A stretch of DNA of 64,000 bases, taken from NCBI GenBank assembly GCA_020846005.1, contig JADLEQ010000023.1, positions 1-64,000 on the forward strand. The letters are read 5' to 3'. Below the pieces are notes generated by a model. It saw nothing but the letters and a program-made list of their open reading frames with translations, was not told the DNA's origin and did not search any database. Below, one piece after another: positions 41,994-52,952 of this stretch (the stretch's first letter is position 1; the number at the start of each line of letters is the position of its first letter). Origin of the DNA: Polyangiaceae bacterium. GTDB taxonomy: Bacteria > Myxococcota_A > Polyangia > Polyangiales > Polyangiaceae. A program made the translations under genes and the position numbers.

Positions 41994-42151
41994 CGCCGAC
42001 GGCTCCGCGTGTCGTTGGGTCTCGGCACGAAACGCGGCTCCTGACCCGCCGCGACTGACGTCCATCATACGCACGGCCTGTGCCATGCCGTACGAGGGGG
42101 CGCCGGCACATCGCGTGCACCCGCGCACCCGTGCGCCCCAGGAGACCCTTC

Positions 42152-44110
42152 ATGCGAATTCGTTCCACGGTTCCCCTCACGATGGCTGCCCTCGCGGCGG
42201 CGGCGACCTTCGCCTGCGACCAGAGGCCGACCCCCGGCGCCGGACCGTCGGCGTCCGTGTCGGCGAGCGCGGGCGCGGCGCCTCTCAGCGCCGCGGCCGT
42301 CGCCGGGCAGGCGCTGTTCGAGACGAAGTGCGCCGCCTGCCACAGCGTCGGCGAGGGCGACCGCGTCGGTCCGGACCTCAAGGACGTGGGCAAGCGCCGC
42401 GACAAGACCTGGATCGGGAAGTTCGTCCGCGACCCCGTGACGATGACGAAGGAGGACCCGATCGGGAAGGAGCTCCTCGCGAAGTACAAGGCGCAGATGG
42501 CGCCCATGGCCGTGACCGACCCGGAGCTCGATCAGCTCCTCGCGTACATCGCGGAGCAGGGCGCCTCCGGCGCGGCGGCGGCGCCCGCGGAGCCGTTCAC
42601 CGAGCTCGCGGGGGCGGACTTCGAGAAGGCGAAGGGGATCTACTTCCAGCGCTGCTCGGGCTGCCACGGGACGCTGCGGGCCGGCGCCACCGGCCCCAAC
42701 ATCCAGCCCGAGCGCACCCGGAAGCTCGGCACCAAGGCGATCAAGAACGCGCTGGTGAACGGGCTCCCCGGCGGCATGCCCCCGTGGGGGAAGGTCGGCG
42801 TGCTCTCCGACGAGGAGATCGCCCTGATGGCCAACTTCATCCAGATGGCGCCCCCCGAGCCTCCGGGCATGACGCTCGAGCAGATCAAGGCGACCCACGA
42901 GCTGAAGGTCCCCGTCGCCGATCGCCCGAAGAAGCCGGTGACGAAGCGGAACTGGCAGAACTACTTCGGCGTGATCCTGCGCGACGCGGGCCAGGTAGCC
43001 ATCTTCGATGGGGACTCCAAGGAGAAGCTCGCCATCATCCCGACGGGTTACGCGGTGCACATCCTCCGCGCGTCGTCCACGGGTCGCTACTTCTACGCGA
43101 TCGGCCGCGACGGCAAGCTCTCGCTCATCGACCTCTGGCCGGAGACGCCAACGCTCGTGGCTCAGGTGCAGGGCTGCTTCGACGCGCGCAGCGTCGACGG
43201 CAGCAAGGCCAAGGGCTGGGAGGACAAGCTGGTGATCGAGGGCTGCTACTGGCCCGCGCAGTACGTCGTCTTCGACGGGCTCACCCTCGAGCCGAAGGCC
43301 ACCCAGAACGTGCTCATGCCCGCCATCGACGGCGAGCAGCTCAAGGAGAACCGCGTCGCGGCGATCGTCGCGAGCCACCACGATCCGCTGTGGGTCGTCA
43401 ACCTGAAGGAGGCCGGGTACATCGTCCTCGTCGACTACAGCAAGCCCGGGTTCCCGATCGTCGACAAGTTCGAGACGCAGCGCTTCCTCCACGACGGCGG
43501 CTGGGACGCCAGCAAGCGGTACATCATGATGGCCGCCAACATGAAGAACGAGATGGTCGTGGTCGACGTGAAGGAGCGGAAGTTCGTCACCAAGTTCGAG
43601 ACGGGCATCAAGCCGCACCCGGGCCGCGGCGCGAACTTCCTGGATCCCCAGTACGGCTGGGTGAACGCCACCACCCACATCGGCGAGCCCAAGCTGGTCA
43701 TCTACGGCGCAGACCCCGCCAAGAAGCCCGAGCACGCGTGGAAGGTGGTGCGCGAGTTCAAGGCGGGCGGCTCGGGGAGCCTGTTCGTCAAGACGCACCC
43801 GAAGAGCCGCTGGGTCTGGTTCGACTCTCCGATGGCGGCCGAGGCGAAGGACACGCGCCAGATCTGCGTCTACGACAAGCAGGAGGCGAAGGTCCACAAG
43901 TGCTGGGCCGCACTCGAGCGCGGGCGCATCACGCACTTCGAGTTCGACAAGGAGGGCAAGGAGGTTTGGGTCTCGGGCTGGGACAAGAAGGGCGCCATCA
44001 TCGTCTACGACGACAAGGAGCTGAAGGAGATCAAGCGGATCGAGGAGGACTGGCTCGTCACGCCGACGGGCAAGTTCAACGTCTACAACACCGCGCACGA
44101 CGTGTACTGA
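42152..44110 (+). CDS. nirS: Cytochrome cd1 nitrite reductase NirS with an extra cytochrome c domain
   Basis: The product is 652 residues: a signal peptide (possibly lipoprotein, ATFAC at Cys22), a first cytochrome c domain (CAACH at 60-64), a second cytochrome c domain (CSGCH at 168-172) and an eight-bladed d1-heme propeller (about 262-652). In the propeller the proximal d1 ligand is His303 (GYAVHILR), and the two active-site histidines are His447 (RFLHDGG) and His489 (KPHPGRGANF). The end VTPTGKFNVYNTAHDVY is typical NirS. It reduces nitrite to nitric oxide in the periplasm. Classical NirS has one cytochrome c domain; here a second electron-carrier domain is fused at the front. The ATG follows GGAGA. 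Heme d1 synthesis genes follow on the same strand. Confidence 0.93.
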   Translation: MRIRSTVPLTMAALAAAATFACDQRPTPGAGPSASVSASAGAAPLSAAAVAGQALFETKCAACHSVGEGDRVGPDLKDVGKRRDKTWIGKFVRDPVTMTKEDPIGKELLAKYKAQMAPMAVTDPELDQLLAYIAEQGASGAAAAPAEPFTELAGADFEKAKGIYFQRCSGCHGTLRAGATGPNIQPERTRKLGTKAIKNALVNGLPGGMPPWGKVGVLSDEEIALMANFIQMAPPEPPGMTLEQIKATHELKVPVADRPKKPVTKRNWQNYFGVILRDAGQVAIFDGDSKEKLAIIPTGYAVHILRASSTGRYFYAIGRDGKLSLIDLWPETPTLVAQVQGCFDARSVDGSKAKGWEDKLVIEGCYWPAQYVVFDGLTLEPKATQNVLMPAIDGEQLKENRVAAIVASHHDPLWVVNLKEAGYIVLVDYSKPGFPIVDKFETQRFLHDGGWDASKRYIMMAANMKNEMVVVDVKERKFVTKFETGIKPHPGRGANFLDPQYGWVNATTHIGEPKLVIYGADPAKKPEHAWKVVREFKAGGSGSLFVKTHPKSRWVWFDSPMAAEAKDTRQICVYDKQEAKVHKCWAALERGRITHFEFDKEGKEVWVSGWDKKGAIIVYDDKELKEIKRIEEDWLVTPTGKFNVYNTAHDVY

Positions 44111-44252
44111 GCGCGAGTCGCGGCGGCGCCCCCGGTGAGACCAGCGGGGCGCGACGGGGTCGGCCACCGCCGGCCCCGTCTCCATTTCGGAGCGGTCACC
44201 CGCCGAGGCCGCGGCGCCCCTGGGCACGCATCTTGAATCCCGCCGGAGCGAC

Positions 44253-45443
44253 ATGCTGATGGTGACCGACCTCCTCCGCGCCGCGCGCGATCCCGCCGCC
44301 GCGCAGGCGACGCGCGCCAGGGCGCCGCAGCGCTTCTCCGGGCCGGCGCGCGGCGTGCCCGTGGTGGTGTGGAACGTCGTCGGGCACTGCAACCTCTCCT
44401 GCCCGCACTGCTACGCGGCCGCATCGCTGGCGCCGTCCGCGCACGATCTGCGCACCGACGAGGCGCTCCGGCTGCTCGAGCAGCTCGCCGAGACGGGCAC
44501 GCAGGTCATCATCTTCAGCGGAGGAGAGCCGCTCCTCCGTGGCGATCTCTTCGAGCTGATCGAGCGCGCCGTCGCCCTCGGCCTCTCTCCGCAGCTCTCG
44601 ACGAACGGCACGCTGCTCGACGACACGACCGCCGCGCGCCTGCGCGAGGCCGGCGTGCGCTACGTCGGGGTGAGCGTGGACGGTACGCGGCCGTTCAACG
44701 ACCGCTACCGGGGCATGGTGGGGGCCTTCCAGCGCGCCTCCGACGGCCTGCGCGCGGCGCGACGCGCGGGGATGCGCACCGGCCTCCGCCTGACGCTCTC
44801 GCGGGCGAACGCCGAGCAGCTCGAGGCGGTGCTCGCCCACGCGACGGAGCTGGGCGTCGACCGCTTCTACGTGTCGCACCTGGTGTACTCGGGGCGTGCG
44901 GCGCGCATGGCGGACGCCGATCTGTTGCCCGCGGAGTCCCGCGCGGTGCTCGAGCGGCTTTTCGAGCTCGCGCTGGGGCAGCTCGGGGACGGGGTCGGGC
45001 CGGAGGTGGTCACGGGTGGGAATGACTCGGACGGCCCGGCGCTGCTGCTGTGGTTGGAGGCTCGGCTCGGTCGCGAGGCGTCCGCGCGGGCCGAGGCGCT
45101 GCTCGCGGCGCGCGGCGGCAACTCCGCTGGCGAGAAGCTGCTGGACATCGACCACCTGGGGCGCGTGCACCCGGACCAGTTCTGGCAGGCCGCGCGGCTG
45201 GGCGACGTCCGGCACACGTCCTTCGCCGAGATCCTGCGGCACCCCCTCCTCGCGCAGCTCCGCGACCGCACCCGACTGCTGACGGGGCGCTGCGGCGAAT
45301 GTCGGTGGCTGGAGCTCTGCCGCGGATCGCACCGCGAGCGCGCGCTCGCGGTGCACCACGACCCGTGGGCGCCCGATCCTGCCTGCGTGATGACCGACGC
45401 CGAGATCGGACGCGCTCCGAGCCTACGGAAGGCCGCCCCATGA
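44253..45443 (+). CDS. nirJ: Heme d1 biosynthesis radical SAM protein NirJ
   Basis: A radical SAM enzyme of 396 residues with CxxxCxxC at Cys46, Cys50 and Cys53 (GHCNLSCPHCYA), the SAM-binding FSGGEPLL and STNGT strands, and a C-terminal SPASM-like cysteine cluster (GRCGECRWLELC, and CV near the end) for a second iron-sulfur cluster. NirJ replaces propionate side chains of 12,18-didecarboxysiroheme during d1 formation. Position directly after nirS and before nirF and nirDL supports NirJ rather than another heme-type SPASM enzyme such as AhbC/AhbD. The start is ATG 44253 (GGAG upstream) or ATG 44259. The stop overlaps nirF by 4 nt. Confidence 0.9.
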   Translation: MLMVTDLLRAARDPAAAQATRARAPQRFSGPARGVPVVVWNVVGHCNLSCPHCYAAASLAPSAHDLRTDEALRLLEQLAETGTQVIIFSGGEPLLRGDLFELIERAVALGLSPQLSTNGTLLDDTTAARLREAGVRYVGVSVDGTRPFNDRYRGMVGAFQRASDGLRAARRAGMRTGLRLTLSRANAEQLEAVLAHATELGVDRFYVSHLVYSGRAARMADADLLPAESRAVLERLFELALGQLGDGVGPEVVTGGNDSDGPALLLWLEARLGREASARAEALLAARGGNSAGEKLLDIDHLGRVHPDQFWQAARLGDVRHTSFAEILRHPLLAQLRDRTRLLTGRCGECRWLELCRGSHRERALAVHHDPWAPDPACVMTDAEIGRAPSLRKAAP

Positions 45444-46699
45444 CCCTGCTCCGGACCCACGCCATCGCGCTGGGCGCCTTGGCCGCGCTCGCCTGTCGCC
45501 AGCCCACGCTCGCCTCCGAGCCCGCGCCGGCCGCCTCGGTGTCGGCCGCCGCGTCGGCGGCACCGGCGCCGCCGCCCGGTGGGGTCGGGTCACGGGTGTT
45601 CGTGGTGGAGCGGGAGACGGAGAGCCTTGGCGTCTACGACCTGGTGTCCAGGACGTACGAGCCGGGCCGGATCCGCGGGCTCGGGAACCTGCGCCACGCG
45701 GTGATGGCGTTCTCGCCCGATCTCCGCTGGGGCTACGTCGCCACGCGGAGCGGGAAGCTCAGCCGGGTCGATCTGGCGACCCTCGAGCGCGCGGGAGACG
45801 CGGAGGTCTCGGCGAACAGCATCGACATCGCCATCGGCCAGGACGGACGCTTCGTCGCCACCGCCGAGTACCAGCCGGGCGGCGTGACGTTCCTCGACGC
45901 CAGCACGCTGGAGGTGGTCGAGCGCATCCCGGCCGAATACGAGCGGGACGGCGCGAGGGCGATCTCTCGCGCGACGGGGCTCGTCGACGCCCCCGGACAG
46001 CGCTTCGTGTGCGTGCTGATCGAAGGAGCGGAGATCTGGGTGATCGACGCCTCGGGGCCCAAGCCGGTGGTCGAGCGGCGCGTGCGGACGAGCACGGACG
46101 AGCCGTACGACGCGATGATCACGCCGGACGGTCGCTGGTATGTCGTGGGACACCTGGGCAGCGAACACGTCACCGTGCTCGATCTCGCGGCGAGCGACCC
46201 GCGCCCGCGCGAGGTCAGCCTGCGGGACCCTTCGCGAGAGTTCGCGCGCGCGGCGCCGGTGAAGCTGCCGCACCTGGCCTCGTGGGCGGTGGCGGGCAGC
46301 GGCGTGTTCGTCCCGCTGGTCGGGGAGGCGAGGATGGTCGTGCTGGACCGCGACGGCTGGGGCTTCCGCCGGAGCATCCCGGTGCGCGGACACCCCGTCT
46401 ACGCAGTGGCCGCGCCGAGCGGGCGGGAGGTGTGGGTCAGCTTCTCCGGCGCCGAGCACGACGCCTGGATCGACGTGATCGACACCACGACGCTCACGGT
46501 CGCGCGGAGCCTCCGCGTGGGGGAGCGCATCTATCACCTCGACTTCACGCCGCGCGGCTCCCACGTCCTCGTGAGCGCGAACCAGGCCGGCAGGCTCGCG
46601 CTCGTCGACGCCCGCACCTACGCGGTCGTCGACGAAGAGCCGGTGCACTCGCCCTCGGGCGTCTTCGGCGCCTGGCGCGCCTTCAGGATCGGACTATGA
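45440..46699 (+). CDS. nirF: Heme d1 biosynthesis protein NirF
   Basis: The product is 419 residues with a lipoprotein signal (lipobox ALAC, Cys19) and an Ala/Pro linker. An eight-bladed propeller related to the d1 domain of NirS follows (VFVVERETESLGVYDL, RHAVMAFSPDLRWGYVATRSGKLSRVDL, YDAMITPDGRWYVVGHLGSEHVTVLDL, VRGHPVYAVAAPSGREVWVSFSG). NirF acts in the periplasm late in d1 synthesis, and known forms bind heme d1 or its precursor. The lipid anchor agrees with reports of membrane-attached NirF. There is no cytochrome c motif, which separates it from NirN. The ATG overlaps the nirJ stop, and its stop overlaps nirDL. Confidence 0.9.
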   Translation: MTLLRTHAIALGALAALACRQPTLASEPAPAASVSAAASAAPAPPPGGVGSRVFVVERETESLGVYDLVSRTYEPGRIRGLGNLRHAVMAFSPDLRWGYVATRSGKLSRVDLATLERAGDAEVSANSIDIAIGQDGRFVATAEYQPGGVTFLDASTLEVVERIPAEYERDGARAISRATGLVDAPGQRFVCVLIEGAEIWVIDASGPKPVVERRVRTSTDEPYDAMITPDGRWYVVGHLGSEHVTVLDLAASDPRPREVSLRDPSREFARAAPVKLPHLASWAVAGSGVFVPLVGEARMVVLDRDGWGFRRSIPVRGHPVYAVAAPSGREVWVSFSGAEHDAWIDVIDTTTLTVARSLRVGERIYHLDFTPRGSHVLVSANQAGRLALVDARTYAVVDEEPVHSPSGVFGAWRAFRIGL

Positions 46700-47751
46700 C
46701 GATGAACGCTCCGCTCGCGCCCTCTAACGTCGAGAACGCGCTCGCGCGCGCGCTGCAGACCCAGGTCCCCTTCGTCGAGCGCCCGTTCGCCGCGCTCGGC
46801 GAGCCGCTCGGGCTGTCGGAGGCCGAGGTCCTCCGGGTCCTGCGTACGTGGCGGGAGGACGGTCGCCTCCGTGAGATCTCCGCGATCCTCGAGGGCAGCG
46901 CCCTCGGCTACGACAGCGCGCTCGTGGCGGGCAAGGTGCCGGAGGCGCGTCTGGACGCCGTCGCGGAGATCGTGAACGGCCACCCGACCGTCACGCACAA
47001 CTACGTGCGGGGGCACGAGTACAACCTGTGGTTCACCATCGCGGTGCCCTTCGAGATCGGGCTCGAGCGGACGCTGGAGCAGCTCGCGCGCGCGTGCGAG
47101 GTGGACCGCTTCCACGCGCTCCGGCGGACGCACACCTTCAAGGTCGGGGTGAACTTCGACCTGGAGACGCGCGCGAGCGCGACCGAGGTCGTGCCGCTCG
47201 CGGCCGCGCGGGCCGTGCGGGTCGGGGAGCGCGAGCGCTCCCTGTTCCGAGCGCTCCAGGCGCCGCTCGCGCTGGAGGAGCGCCCCTTCGCGGGGCTCGC
47301 GGCGGCGGTCGGCGCTGGCGAGGAGGAGCTCCTCGCGTTCGCGCGGGGGCACCTCGGCAACGCGATGCGCAGGTACGTCGGCACGTTCCGCCATCGGCGA
47401 CTCGGCGTGCACGGCAACGGTATGGTGGTGTGGCGCGTGCCGGAGGCGGAGCTGCCGAGGGTCGGGCCCGAGCTCGCGGCCACGCGGGAGGTGAGCCACT
47501 GCTACGCACGGAACGCCATCCCGGGGTTCCCCTATACCCTGTACAGCATGGTGCACGGACCGACGGAGGAGGCGTGCCGGGAGGTCGCCGCGGGAGCGGT
47601 CGCGCGCATCGGGGACTGGGAGCGGCTCATCCTCTTCAGCTCGCGGGAGCTGAAGAAGTGCCGCCTGCGCTACTTCTTGCCGGAGCTCGACGCCTGGCGC
47701 GCGCCGACGCCGCGGGCGTCGTCGTCGCGCGTCTCGCTGCCCGCCGCGTGA
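46696..47751 (+). CDS. nirDL: Siroheme decarboxylase, fused NirD-NirL type
   Basis: The product is 351 residues made of two AsnC/Lrp-like halves. Half one (about 10-165) has FVERPFAALGEPLGLSEAEVLRVLRTWREDGRLREISAIL and the active-site region HNYVRGHEYNLWFTIAVP. Half two (about 178-335) repeats the plan: LEERPFAGLAAAVGAGEEELLAFA...RRYVGTFRHRRLGVHGNGMVVWRVP and SHCYARNAIPGFPYTLYSMVHG. Such proteins decarboxylate siroheme at C12 and C18. Many denitrifiers need NirD, L, G and H; here one fused gene is the only copy visible. The C-terminal tail is Ala/Ser/Arg-rich and lies antisense to the end of cysG. The ATG overlaps the nirF stop by 4 nt. Confidence 0.9.
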   Translation: MTMNAPLAPSNVENALARALQTQVPFVERPFAALGEPLGLSEAEVLRVLRTWREDGRLREISAILEGSALGYDSALVAGKVPEARLDAVAEIVNGHPTVTHNYVRGHEYNLWFTIAVPFEIGLERTLEQLARACEVDRFHALRRTHTFKVGVNFDLETRASATEVVPLAAARAVRVGERERSLFRALQAPLALEERPFAGLAAAVGAGEEELLAFARGHLGNAMRRYVGTFRHRRLGVHGNGMVVWRVPEAELPRVGPELAATREVSHCYARNAIPGFPYTLYSMVHGPTEEACREVAAGAVARIGDWERLILFSSRELKKCRLRYFLPELDAWRAPTPRASSSRVSLPAA

Positions 47752-49178
47752 GGCCGCGGGGGGCGGGCCGGCCACTCGCCGACGTCCGCCGCGCCCTCCG
47801 GGTCGAACCAGCGCAGGCGCTCACGCAGCTTCACGACCTGTCCGACGACGATGAGCGTCGGCGGCTTCATGCGGGCCTCCACCGCGAGCTCGGGCAGCGT
47901 CGCCAGGGAGCCCGTCACGACCCGCTGACGGTGGGTGGTGCCCCGCTGGATGATCGCCGCCGGGGTGTCGGCGGGGAGGCCGTGGGCGATGAGCTCACGG
48001 CACAGCACCGGCAGGCCGTGGAGGCCCATGTAGACGACGACCGTCTGCCACGGGCGCGCGAGCGCCGGCCAGTCGAGGTTCATCGTGCCGTCCTTCAGGT
48101 GGCCGGTGACGAAGACGCAGGCGTGGGAGCAGTCGCGGTGCGTGAGCGGGATGCCCGCGTACGCCGCCACGCCCGCCGCCGCCGTGATGCCGGGCACCAC
48201 CTCGAAGGAGACCCCGTGCTCCGCCAGCGTCGCGATCTCCTCGCCGCCTCGCCCGAAGATGAACGGATCGCCGCCCTTCAGTCGGGCGACGCGCTTGCCC
48301 TCCGTGGCCAGGCGGACGAGGAGCGCGTTGATCTCCTCCTGCCGGAGCGCGTGGTGGTCTCGCTCCTTCCCCACGTAGATGCGATCGGCGTCCCGGCGGC
48401 ACAGCTCGACGACGGCGGGCGAGACCAGGTGATCGTAGACGATCACGTCGGCCTGCTGCATCAGGCGGAGCGCGCGGAAGGTGAGGAGATCGGGGTTCCC
48501 GGGGCCGGCGCCCACCAGGTACACCTCGCCGCGAGCCGGCGCCGGTCCGACGGAGGCGAGGCGGTCGTCGAGCCACCGCTCCGCCTCGGCTCGCTTGCCT
48601 GCCAGGACGAGCTCGGCGAAGGGGCCGTCCAGCAGCTCCTCCCAGAGCGCGCGGCGTCGCGCCGGGTCGGGCACGCGCTCCTTCAACCTGGGTCGGAGGG
48701 CGCGCGCCAGCTCGGCCAGGCGGCCGTACGTCGAGGGCAGGAGGGTCTCGAGGCGCGCCCGGAGGAGCCGCGCCAGTACCGGCGAAGCGCCGCTGGTCGA
48801 CACCGACACGACGAGCGGCGAGCGATCGACGATGGACGGGAAGAGGAACGTGCAGAGGTCTGGCGCGTCGACGACGTTGACGAGGACGCCGCGCGCCTGC
48901 GCGGCCGCCGACACGGCGGCGTTGGTCGCGGGCGCGTCCGTCGCGGCGACGACTACGAAGGCGCCGTCGACGTGCTCGGGCGCGAAGCGCTCGGCGAGGT
49001 GCTCGATACGGCCGGCCGCGGCGAGCTCGGCGAGCGAGGGGCCGAGCTCCGGCGAGGCGACGAGCACCTGCGCGCCGGCCGCGAGGAGCAGCGCGACCTT
49101 GCGCGCAGCGACCGTGCCGCCGCCCACGACGAGGGCGCGGCGGGAGGCGAGGGACAGGGAGACGGGGAGGTGGTCCAT
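47670..49178 (-). CDS. cysG: Siroheme synthase CysG (fused dehydrogenase/ferrochelatase and methyltransferase)
   Basis: The product is 502 residues. The N-terminal part (1-205) is the Met8/SirC-type precorrin-2 dehydrogenase/ferrochelatase: ALVVGGGTVAARKVALLL, VVAATDAPATNAAVSAAAQARGVLVNVVDAPDLCTFLFPSI and STSGASPVLAR. The C-terminal part (about 215-460) is the uroporphyrinogen-III methyltransferase: VGAGPGNPDLLTFRALRLMQQADVIVYDHLVS, RLKGGDPFIFGRGGEE and PGITAAAGVAAYAGIPLTHRD. It makes siroheme, here both a cofactor and the precursor for heme d1. The last 40 residues are an extra, low-complexity tail that overlaps nirDL on the other strand by 82 bp. The ATG is preceded by a C/T-rich leader with no ribosome-binding site. 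Confidence 0.95.
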   Translation of the reverse strand: MDHLPVSLSLASRRALVVGGGTVAARKVALLLAAGAQVLVASPELGPSLAELAAAGRIEHLAERFAPEHVDGAFVVVAATDAPATNAAVSAAAQARGVLVNVVDAPDLCTFLFPSIVDRSPLVVSVSTSGASPVLARLLRARLETLLPSTYGRLAELARALRPRLKERVPDPARRRALWEELLDGPFAELVLAGKRAEAERWLDDRLASVGPAPARGEVYLVGAGPGNPDLLTFRALRLMQQADVIVYDHLVSPAVVELCRRDADRIYVGKERDHHALRQEEINALLVRLATEGKRVARLKGGDPFIFGRGGEEIATLAEHGVSFEVVPGITAAAGVAAYAGIPLTHRDCSHACVFVTGHLKDGTMNLDWPALARPWQTVVVYMGLHGLPVLCRELIAHGLPADTPAAIIQRGTTHRQRVVTGSLATLPELAVEARMKPPTLIVVGQVVKLRERLRWFDPEGAADVGEWPARPPRPHAAGSETRDDDARGVGARQASSSGKK

Positions 49179-49241: not shown

Positions 49242-50219
49242 TCAGGCGACGCGGTCGAAGCGCTCGGCGAGGTGCCACTCCAGGGCCTCCCGGCTCGGGC
49301 GGGCATGGGGGCTCTCCGGTACGAACCGGAGGGAGCGCCCGTCGTACTCGTTGTACCGGCGGCCGTTGTTCCAGCGCTCTCGGATCTGGCGGGAGACGCG
49401 GACGCGGTAGTCAGCTCGACCCGCGGTCGGCGGTTCGATGCCCACGAGCCCGTGGTCGAAGAGCGTATGGAATTCGCTGGTGAGCAGCAGACCATTCTGC
49501 AGGTGGTTGCTCGCGGGGCCCAGGTACGGCTGGATGTGCGCCGCCTCGAGCACGGGCTCCGTGTGCTCGCCGGTGACGGCGCACTGCCGCCCGTACGCAT
49601 CGAGGACGCGGGCGCGGAACACTCGTTGCCCTTCGCGCGCGACGACCTCGGACTCGATCCGGCGGCGCTCATCATCGCGCAGGAGCTCGAACGGGCCGGC
49701 GAGATCGCGCGGCGCGGCGGCTCCGTCCTGAGCGATGGCGCTGAGGAGGACGCGCGCGCTCTCCGTGCTCCGCGTCCGACCCCCGCGCACGTTGCCTTGC
49801 GCGCTGAACCCCTGTTCGACGCCCCACGGCAGCCAGCGATGGTCCTCCCAGAAGGTCACGTCGCGTAGGAGCGTGCAGCCCAGCGGCCGGCGCATCCAGC
49901 TCTCATCACGCCTCAGCAGCCTCGCGAGCTCGGCACGCGAGTCCGCACCGGCCCGGATGCCGAACGTCTGCCAGACCCAGTTCGCGTCCGGCGCGACGAA
50001 GAAGGACGCGAAGAAGCCGTAGCCGGCGATCGCGTTCCTCGGTGACTTGAGCTTCAGAAATGACGGCTCGCCGGGCGCGGCCTTCACGACCGGGTCCTGC
50101 GCGCGCGGGTGCCAGAAGCACACCTCGTCCAGCCGCCACGGTGGCCGGCCGCGCGCCTCCCGGGAGAGGCGATCGAACCAATCCACGTTGGTCACCAGGA
50201 CGATCGGACCTTCCGGCAT
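49242..50219 (-). CDS. HNH endonuclease with PUA/EVE-like N-terminal domain
   Basis: The product is 325 residues. The C-terminal third is an HNH_2-type nuclease: FRARVLDAYGRQCAVTGEHTEPVLEAAHIQPYLGPASNHLQNGLLLTSEFHTLFDHGLVGI has the expected His, Asn and His ligands but only one Cys, so no structural zinc. The N-terminal 150 residues (VLVTNVDWFDRL...EVCFWHPRA...SFLKLKSPRNAIAGYGFFASFF) have the look of a PUA-like domain of the EVE/SRA class: W/F-x-P, then F-K-L-K-x-P-x-x-x-I-x-G-x-G. Such domains read modified bases when fused to HNH nucleases, suggesting modification-dependent restriction. The ATG at 50219 has TATCAT six bases upstream. A GTG at 50246 is the alternative. No methylase lies nearby. 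Confidence 0.8.
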   Translation of the reverse strand: MPEGPIVLVTNVDWFDRLSREARGRPPWRLDEVCFWHPRAQDPVVKAAPGEPSFLKLKSPRNAIAGYGFFASFFVAPDANWVWQTFGIRAGADSRAELARLLRRDESWMRRPLGCTLLRDVTFWEDHRWLPWGVEQGFSAQGNVRGGRTRSTESARVLLSAIAQDGAAAPRDLAGPFELLRDDERRRIESEVVAREGQRVFRARVLDAYGRQCAVTGEHTEPVLEAAHIQPYLGPASNHLQNGLLLTSEFHTLFDHGLVGIEPPTAGRADYRVRVSRQIRERWNNGRRYNEYDGRSLRFVPESPHARPSREALEWHLAERFDRVA

Positions 50220-50231: not shown

Positions 50232-50281
50232 CCGGAGCTCGGACACGATGGACGATCACCCTGGCCTCGACGCGGCGTCGA

Positions 50282-50656: not shown

Positions 50657-52750
50657 TCACCCCCCGAGTGGCTTCGCGCAGCGGAAGCCGATCCCGTGGC
50701 TCCGCGCCGTCGGCACCTGCGCGTAGCGGAACGACGGGTGCAGCCACGCCTCGAACCAGCCATTGAAGGCGCCGCCCCGGATCACCCGCCGCGCGCCCGT
50801 CTCCGGGCCGCGCGGGTCGACCCGCGGCTCGGAGGTGTACTCGGCCTCCCAGTCCGCCACCCACTCGAACACGTTGCCCACCATGTCGCGCGGGCCGAAG
50901 CGCGAGCTGCCGAGCGGGAATCTGCCAACCGGCGCGGTCGCGGGGAAGCCGTCGTCGTCCTCGTAGAGCGGCTGCAGGGTGACGCCGTTCTCGCGCCCCC
51001 AGCGCACGCACTCGGGCCCGCAGGCGTTCAGGTGGCGGGCCGTCGGCTTCTCGTCCCCCCAGGGGTACACGCGGCCATCGGGGCCGCGCGCCGCGTACTC
51101 CCACTCGGCCTCGGTGGGGAGGCGGCGATCTTGCGCCGCGCAGTAGGTCTGCGCCGAGTCCCAGTCGACGCAGTTCACCGGGTGGTCGCTGCGCTCCGGC
51201 GCTTGGCCAGTGCACAACGCGTCGAACTTGGGTCGGTCCTTCGGGGCCAAGCCGGGGAAGTCTACCGAGGTGGGCGCGCGCCTGCACTGCCCGGCGTCGG
51301 AGCACGCCTTGTAGCGGGACGCGGTGACTTCGTTCAGGTCGAGGCAGAACGCCGGGAGCTTCACGTTGTGGCTCGGCCGCTGGTTCTTCGGGGCGTCGTC
51401 GGCGTCGGAGCCCATGAAGAACTGGCCAGCCGGGATGAGCGCCATGTCCTCCGGGCACGTCGTGGGCGTGGCGGCCGCCGCCGACGCCGCCGGAGCGGCG
51501 CTCGCCGTCGGCGTCGCGGTGGCGGCGACGGGCGGCTCGGGCGAGCGCCGCGGCGCGAAGTGCGCAGCGGCCGCGATCGCGGTGACGACGCCCGCTCCGC
51601 CCAGGACCAGGCCGAGCCGGGATCGGCTTGCGGCGGGTGGGATCACCGGAGTGAACGACGCGCTGCCGCCGGTCGCGCCCACCGGTGGCCCGTCGCCGAG
51701 GACGGTGGCGGCGACCGAGGCCGAGACGACCGGGTCACGCGGCGCGCTCGCCGGAGCGGGGCCGGCGCTCACCGGCGCGACCACGGTCTCCCCGCGCGAC
51801 CGCAGGCCCGCAGCCGCTTCGAGCTCATCCCATAGCTCACCGCAGCGAGCTGGACGCTGCCTCGGATCCGTCGAGAGCGCCTTGCGGAGCACCGCCTCGA
51901 CCTCCGGCGGCACCGGGACGCCGAACGCGCTCGGCACCGGGCGTCGCTCGCTGCTGCTCGACGAGAACGCGAGCTGTACCACGTCCGTGCCCTCGAGCGC
52001 CGGCCGGCCGGCGAGCAGCTCGACGACGCAGAGGGCGACGGCGTAGACGTCCGTCCACGGCCCCGTCGCGCCGTAGGTGCGGCTGAACTGCTCGGGCGCG
52101 CCGTACTGGGGCGTGAAGGAGGTGATGCTCGCGCCCGTCTTCGCCAGGGCCGCCTGCAGGTGCGAGCTGTCGCTCACCATCTTCGCGACGCCGAAGTCGA
52201 GCACCTTGACGGTCGCGCTACCGCTCCTCGGGTTGGCGCCGAGCACGAAGATGTTGGCGGGCTTCACGTCGCGGTGGGCGACGCCTCGCCGATGCGCGAC
52301 ATCGAGCGCCCGGGCGACCGGCCCGAGCAGCGCCATCGTCTCGCCCAGGGTGAAGCGCCCGCGACCGGCGGCCCGCTCGGCCTCCAGCACGTCGTCGAGC
52401 GGGCGGCCGTCGAGCCACTCGAGGACCATGTACGGGAGCCACGCGCCGTCCGCCGTGGTGTGCGTGCCCACGTCCCGCGCCTGGACGATCGCCGCCGTCT
52501 CGCTCGAGAGCTCGGTCAGCAGCGCGCCCTCGTTGACGAACGCCTGGAGCAGGGCGTCGCGCTGGTCGACCGGCGAGCTGGCCAAGCCGCTGAAGAGCTT
52601 GATGGCGACCGGCTTCTTCCAGATGTCGTGCTGCGCCCGGTACACGACGGCGAACCCGCCCTCGCCGACGCAGCGCTCGATCGTGTACTTCCCGGCGAGG
52701 GTCGTCCCTGCCAGGCCGAGCGGGTCGTCCGGGGCTGGTCGAGTCGTCAC
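50657..52750 (-). CDS. Ser/Thr protein kinase with C-terminal formylglycine-enzyme-like domain
   Basis: The product is 697 residues. The kinase domain (about 20-295) is complete: VGEGGFAVVYRA, catalytic Lys51 (VAIKLF), HRDVKPANIF with Asp161, DFGVAK (185-190) and GAPEQF. An Ala/Pro/Ser linker and one membrane helix (about 410-432) lead to a periplasmic SUMF1/FGE-sulfatase domain (about 465-697): MALIPAGQFFMGSDADD, LDLNEVTASRYKAC, PVNCVDWDSAQTYCAAQDRRLPTEAEWEYAARG and NVFEWVADW...RRVIRGGAF. Such domains in kinases probably bind a ligand rather than oxidise cysteine. The fusion is common in myxobacteria and planctomycetes. The GTG at 52750 gives a natural start just before the kinase domain. 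Longer open sequence upstream is Arg-rich shadow. Confidence 0.92.
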   Translation of the reverse strand: MTTRPAPDDPLGLAGTTLAGKYTIERCVGEGGFAVVYRAQHDIWKKPVAIKLFSGLASSPVDQRDALLQAFVNEGALLTELSSETAAIVQARDVGTHTTADGAWLPYMVLEWLDGRPLDDVLEAERAAGRGRFTLGETMALLGPVARALDVAHRRGVAHRDVKPANIFVLGANPRSGSATVKVLDFGVAKMVSDSSHLQAALAKTGASITSFTPQYGAPEQFSRTYGATGPWTDVYAVALCVVELLAGRPALEGTDVVQLAFSSSSSERRPVPSAFGVPVPPEVEAVLRKALSTDPRQRPARCGELWDELEAAAGLRSRGETVVAPVSAGPAPASAPRDPVVSASVAATVLGDGPPVGATGGSASFTPVIPPAASRSRLGLVLGGAGVVTAIAAAAHFAPRRSPEPPVAATATPTASAAPAASAAAATPTTCPEDMALIPAGQFFMGSDADDAPKNQRPSHNVKLPAFCLDLNEVTASRYKACSDAGQCRRAPTSVDFPGLAPKDRPKFDALCTGQAPERSDHPVNCVDWDSAQTYCAAQDRRLPTEAEWEYAARGPDGRVYPWGDEKPTARHLNACGPECVRWGRENGVTLQPLYEDDDGFPATAPVGRFPLGSSRFGPRDMVGNVFEWVADWEAEYTSEPRVDPRGPETGARRVIRGGAFNGWFEAWLHPSFRYAQVPTARSHGIGFRCAKPLGG

Positions 52751-52952
52751 GGACTGCCGGCTCCGGCGCGGGCGCCGCCCTCGGGCGGTGCGGGGGGCTG
52801 CTGGGAGGGCTTCGCGATCAAGCTGGGCTCCGTGGGGAGGGGACCGGGAGCCGAGGCGCCCGCACGACTCAACCCCCTGTACGTGGGGCCCGACCGCCGG
52901 TTTCGGCAAGGCGGCTGCGGGGCATCCGACGCCGGCGGCGCCCGGCGCGCCG

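Follow-up and report, generated by a model that had tools for sequence, protein, structure and literature searches.

The window analysed here, a stretch of 64,000 nucleotides from a contig of a Polyangiaceae bacterium, carries on its minus strand a frame of 325 codons, which runs from an ATG at 50219 to a TGA at 49244-49242 (Table 1). An alternative GTG start at 50246 is possible; the relatives start near M1. The gene is present as a single copy in its own genome (5.7 Mb, 119 contigs), and its GC3 is 0.88, as against 0.93-0.96 in the eight surrounding genes. Matches to chimallin (residues 133-186, E about 0.05), which vanish in a profile search, were set aside as chance, and so was a light-harvesting match with an E of 0.82.

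Table 1. The nuclease gene and its features, with positions in the window.
Feature	Position	Strand	Basis
Whole gene: PUA-like domain, linker and HNH_2 nuclease, 325 aa	49242..50219	-	ORF; 30 other full-length relatives aligned
Front domain, residues 1-169, predicted PUA-superfamily fold, uncatalogued subgroup	49713..50219	-	Model pLDDT 85.4, pTM 0.81; structural matches
Invariant T10 at the end of strand 1; would correspond to VcaM4I T11	50190..50192	-	31/31; residue roles from PMC7897488
Invariant W36-x-P38; would correspond to W22-x-P24 in the flipped-base pocket of VcaM4I	50106..50114	-	31/31; PMC7897488
FLKLKSPRNAIAGYG, residues 54-68, basic strand motif of the original prediction	50016..50060	-	Residue 56 basic (K or R), 31/31
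Invariant W83; would correspond to W82 of VcaM4I	49971..49973	-	31/31
W129, invariant; possible pocket wall	49833..49835	-	31/31
Linker, residues 170-195	49635..49712	-	Residues 172-196 at pLDDT < 50 in the full-length model
HNH nuclease domain, residues 196-325	49245..49634	-	TagI nuclease domain; VcaM4I-like C-terminal half
HNH_2 (PF13391) core with H228, N242, H251 and D255	49434..49583	-	PF13391; each residue 31/31

The neighbours of the gene in the window encode a siroheme synthase, a siroheme decarboxylase-like protein, a cytochrome d1, a radical SAM protein, a DUF454 protein and a kinase-FGE protein, and no known defence gene was found among them. Positions 42080-49178 hold a cytochrome d1/heme d1-type cluster, which comprises a protein with c-heme and d1-like parts, as judged from its sequence, a radical SAM protein, a second D1-domain protein, a NirDL-like siroheme decarboxylase and a fused siroheme synthase. 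At 50657-52909, on the minus strand, a serine/threonine kinase domain and an FGE-sulfatase-type domain are joined in one protein.

The C-terminal third holds the HNH_2 motif that had been pointed out in the original prediction: PF13391 matches residues 213-262 with an E of 3.5e-12 and a score of 46.4 bits, where 21 is the cut-off. H228, N242, H251 and D255 are each invariant, and with these catalytic residues conserved, the predicted HNH nuclease looks intact. A sequence search of the PDB gave VcaM4I as the best match. It was also the top match in Foldseek (E 8.5e-8) for the full-length model (12 rows), which has a mean pLDDT of 79.8 and a pTM of 0.51. VIA-align 2 aligned this model with VcaM4I over 244 residues at a Z of 12.4; the rmsd is 17.4, and therefore the arrangement of the domains is different or uncertain. 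With the nuclease domain of TagI, the Z was 12.3 over 107 residues at 2.7 Å.

The 31 full-length proteins can be aligned across both halves, and the query is 27-52% identical to the 30 others. In the front domain, T10, W14, F35, W36, P38, G66, W83, F86, G91 and W129 are invariant in all 31 proteins; given these residues, the N-terminal pattern is, at the level of the alignment, more than chance. As previously described, this pattern includes FWHP (35-38) and FLKLKSPRNAIAGYG (54-68), but the 'FKLK' reported within it was one letter short, the actual string being FLKLK. A tyrosine near position 150 is found in 16 of the 31 relatives; the query protein has an arginine there. No Pfam family matched the front 170 residues of the query at E values up to 10, and the EVE, ASCH and SRA families were matched by none of the 31 relatives at E values up to 1. 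In NCBIfam and PADLOC, the front domain was without a match, and the sub-threshold matches were confined to the C-terminal part.

When modelled alone, the front domain reached a pLDDT of 85.4 and a pTM of 0.81, which is better than the full-length model. It is confidently modelled as a PUA-superfamily fold, and an unrelated fold, against which the original prediction was to be checked by fold prediction, was not seen. Foldseek matched the model to 2kku (E 1.3e-5) and ZmASCH (1e-4). In VIA-align 2, where a Z below 8 may by itself reflect a common arrangement, ZmASCH exceeded this value with a Z of 11.3 (140 residues, 3.5 Å), and the EVE domain of VcaM4I gave 7.6 (128 residues, 3.9 Å); the other values were 8.6 for 2dp9, 8.0 for the McrB N-domain (6n0s), 7.9 for the EVE protein 2eve, 7.4 for THYN1, 6.9 for the TRIP4 ASCH domain, 6.8 for YqfB and near 6 for YTH domains. 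The list of matches was dominated by ASCH, EVE, McrB-N, THYN1, TRIP4, YqfB and YTH structures, and most of the other structures listed are PUA-superfamily proteins. Among viral predicted structures, several ASCH-named proteins were matched, and only two unnamed ones at E < 0.001. SRA structures gave weak Foldseek E values only, and there was no SRA profile match.

As for the subgroup, EVE was rejected by sequence, with hhalign giving only 0.2% for the front-domain profile against nine VcaM4I-like front domains. This comparison set was verified via one member, L043, which matches 6yex over its full length with an E of 1.8e-93; L046, L048 and L049 (with other front ends), L050 and L056 lie outside it. 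In the comparison of full-length profiles with the VcaM4I-like proteins, the HNH half alone aligned (98.8-99.1%). According to PMC7897488, an EVE domain is recognized by a sixth strand beside strand 1, which comes after the five-strand core; in the front-domain model, this core is followed by very short strands only. ASCH was rejected as well, though ZmASCH is the nearest fold. The motif GxKxxxxR, which PMC5615036 describes as conserved among ASCH proteins, occurs in none of the 31 proteins within the first 170 residues, and PF04266, searched at E values up to 10 for the query and up to 1 for the 31 relatives, gave no match. Across the query's own genome, there were no ASCH matches at 1e-5. 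Because EVE fails by sequence and ASCH by motif, the front domain, as predicted from sequence and model, is an uncatalogued subgroup of the PUA superfamily, with ZmASCH nearest in shape. According to PMC7641849, EVE-HNH proteins are varied, and many EVE domains escape all but sensitive methods; the family of the query may be among the EVE-HNH variants seen by those authors.

A contig search of the genome collection found six loci. Among Myxococcota, 67 of 377 genomes have a match at an E of 1e-5, and 28 of these, the query's own included, hold an essentially full-length copy. Of the 1501 plasmid records matched, 4 have a single place that spans at least 80% of the query, and such coverage was seen in none of 11 phage records. 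In IMG/VR, the single-protein search found nothing, and the alignment search found six loci, five of them full length. From alignment A1, L034 (with a stop inside), L033 and L036 (partial) and L007 (self) were dropped, along with L011 and L022, which were judged to duplicate L002 and L003; L042 (partial) was dropped from A2. The Myxococcota locus L083 (G019:C2:442-1341) has an in-frame TAA within the nuclease gene and is probably a decayed copy.

The tree, built from 31 rows, places the query together with two relatives that belong to another family (96/85), and this group sits in a fully supported clade of seven, including one Planctomycetota row. Two other rows come from the query's own family; one is in the clade of seven, not beside the query, and the other is in the other large clade. 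G377, a genome of the same genus, lacks a full-length copy. The neighbouring siroheme synthase had no match at 1e-10 in G377, G036 and G006, and the DUF454 neighbour was matched in G377 only among these three. The tree, the GC3 and the absence from the same-genus genome fit a horizontal gain, which is expected of defence genes and is not specific to them. Mobility of the gene is supported.

Around 27 relatives, 125 of 127 neighbouring proteins were compared, the ORFs having been called by a simple GC-bias script; L082:3426-3662 and L083:430-675, which overlap the nuclease gene, and most of the 50 proteins at nine other loci lay outside this set. No recurrent partner was found around the 27 relatives, the commonest Pfam families being present at three or fewer among the 25 of 93 families listed. 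The PADLOC families listed (25 of 225) each match 2 of the 125 neighbours and are helicase-like. At 2 of 36 loci (L041 and, from G337, L063), the gene next to the family member codes for a second nuclease of the HNH_2 type, whose front domain is different. These second nucleases (L041:8914-9843 and L063:6963-7850, both on the plus strand) share 31% identity over nearly their full length; the loci are unrelated. The phage contig L040:1-13270 carries a family member together with matches to a terminase small subunit, ParB, a methyltransferase and a primase-helicase. The member lies beside the ParB and methyltransferase genes, as if phages use the nuclease too.

The gene is probably a single-gene restriction system, its product being a modification-dependent (type IV-like) endonuclease. 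Sequence and model together support a PUA-superfamily sensor fused to an HNH nuclease in one gene, in a VcaM4I-like layout. The original prediction of a PUA-like domain in front of an HNH nuclease held for the fold, with VcaM4I as the best whole-protein match; in the sequence comparisons, the sensor fell into neither the EVE nor the ASCH class. The function proposed in that prediction is likely right. For the query protein itself, we infer modification-dependent cleavage and phage defence. The front PUA-superfamily domain would bind DNA, and a modified base would be flipped into a pocket of invariant aromatic residues. Capture of the base would release the C-terminal HNH nuclease, which would then cut nearby, probably as a dimer. 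Base flipping, the identity of the pocket, the dimer, auto-inhibition by the linker and the antiviral role are transferred from VcaM4I and would apply here by analogy.

The restriction reading is favoured by the HNH_2 motif with its invariant residues, the PUA fold of the front domain, the likeness to VcaM4I and its residue order, the lack of a recurrent methylase or other partner among the families listed, the second HNH_2 nuclease at 2 of 36 loci, the patchy spread across phyla and the relatives on phage contigs. Against it stand the front domain without an EVE, ASCH or SRA profile match, the arginine at the tyrosine site, the few defence genes beside the relatives and the metabolic neighbours in the window. 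Moreover, ZmASCH is a reported ssRNA nuclease, and a PUA fold is therefore no proof of base reading. No characterised full-length member of the family was found in the literature searched, a scope from which subscription journals were largely absent. Streptomyces SCO2863 and SCO4213 may be characterised members. An architecture-guided screen was reportedly carried out by Lutz et al. in 2019.

The target base can be approached from the methylation of the host. The genome has no match to a C5-cytosine methyltransferase at an E of 1e-10; its methyltransferase matches are seven N6_N4_Mtase, two N6_Mtase and two MethyltransfD12. Since the host has adenine- or N4-type enzymes, a reader of those common marks would endanger it unless limited by context. 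A reader of C5-modified cytosine would pose no such danger, as no C5 enzyme was matched, so that self-tolerance in this host is more compatible with C5-modified cytosine than with adenine or N4-cytosine methylation. Across the family, C5 methyltransferases occur in 16 of the 28 genomes with full-length relatives, as compared with 147 of 377 overall (upper-tail P of 0.034, with kinship and genome size ignored); G019, with the internal stop in its copy, is counted among the 28, and G202, with matches on two contigs, is not. As C5 enzyme genes are not depleted in the relatives' genomes, plain 5mC is doubtful as a target of the whole family. Recognition of a hypermodified base, or a restriction to certain sequence contexts, accords with both the own genome and the family data. 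It is conceivable, and advanced tentatively, that the sensor represents a distinct class of PUA reader, apart from EVE, ASCH, SRA and YTH and shared by several phyla and phages, whose target is perhaps a hypermodified or N4-modified phage cytosine and not plain 5mC; it would sometimes form a pair with a second HNH nuclease whose sensor is different, such that two kinds of modified DNA are policed together.

If the front domain recognized unmodified DNA, by a short sequence or by a structure, the HNH nuclease would be type II-like or structure-specific, with self-protection by other means. PUA-like domains bind unmodified nucleic acid too, ZmASCH binding ssDNA and ssRNA, and no sequence similarity ties the front domain to readers proven to recognize modified bases. 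This explanation is nevertheless unlikely: no methyltransferase of the four DNA methyltransferase families searched was matched on contig C23 (104,625 bases), in line with the earlier remark that no methylase partner lies nearby, none was seen around the relatives among the 25 of 93 families listed, and the likeness to VcaM4I extends across the whole protein. Still less probable is an action on RNA or nucleosides, ASCH-like as in ZmASCH or YqfB, by which the protein would be a stress or toxin-like nuclease. ZmASCH, reported to cut ssRNA, is indeed the top structural match (Z 11.3), and YqfB, an ac4C amidohydrolase, is matched at a Z of 6.8; yet the ASCH motif GxKxxxxR is missing in 31 of 31 proteins, and the HNH half groups with DNA-cutting restriction enzymes.

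That clustering of the HNH half with restriction enzymes also argues against a selfish or phage-derived nuclease that helped in homing or packaging and was taken up into the chromosome, to which only a slim chance is given. IMG/VR contigs do hold five full-length relatives, in one case along with terminase, ParB, methyltransferase and primase genes, and the GC3 is somewhat below that of the neighbours (0.88 as against 0.93-0.96). However, the fused front domain is conserved, the 26 other aligned relatives come from bacterial assemblies and not from viral contigs (distinct A1 genomes: 30/30), and a modification-dependent enzyme, HHPV4I, is known to be phage-borne as well.

If the reading as a modification-dependent restriction endonuclease is true, the enzymes that cleave modified phage DNA would gain a widespread unnamed sensor. 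Modified-base sensors of this kind are sought for phage defence and as tools for mapping DNA modification. According to PMC11037411, ASCH domains are predicted to be readers of DNA adenine methylation without experimental proof; an ASCH-shaped domain on a nuclease would give a simple cleavage read-out of what such folds read.

Among known systems, NF045808, a phosphorothioated-DNA-binding restriction endonuclease family, is matched by the HNH half alone (residues 195-321). The front half is unmatched and the 53.6 bits are far under the curated cut-off of 180, and membership was rejected. ZmASCH of Zymomonas mobilis (PDB 5GUS/5Y6B) is the structure nearest to the front domain. It is a stand-alone protein, reported in PMC5615036 to cut ssRNA and to bind ssDNA and ssRNA, and its GxKxxxxR is absent from 31 of 31 relatives. 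TagI (SRA-HNH, PDB 6GHS) has the same HNH fold, and the layout of a PUA-superfamily sensor with an HNH nuclease is common to both; its own sensor is SRA-type, and the sequence match is weak and limited to the HNH half (E 0.32).

VcaM4I (EVE-HNH, PDB 6YEX), a modification-dependent restriction endonuclease of solved structure, has the same domain order as the query protein and a homologous HNH half, with hhalign giving 98.8-99.1% against VcaM4I-like profiles. Its H224, N241, D250 and D254 correspond to H228, N242, H251 and D255, the position of Asp250 thus being taken by a histidine. Its front domain also belongs to the PUA superfamily, but is unrelated in sequence, and the query's is structurally nearer to ZmASCH. 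The pocket into which its EVE domain flips 5mC or 5hmC consists, according to PMC7897488, of P24, W82 and Y130; T11 and W22 contact the edge of the base, and a linker helix blocks the nuclease until, as the authors presume, modified DNA is bound. T11, W22-x-P24 and W82 are matched in chain order by T10, W36-x-P38 and W83, which would be their counterparts by this order. Y130 has no clear counterpart in the query protein; the invariant W129 might take the role of the tyrosine missing near position 150.
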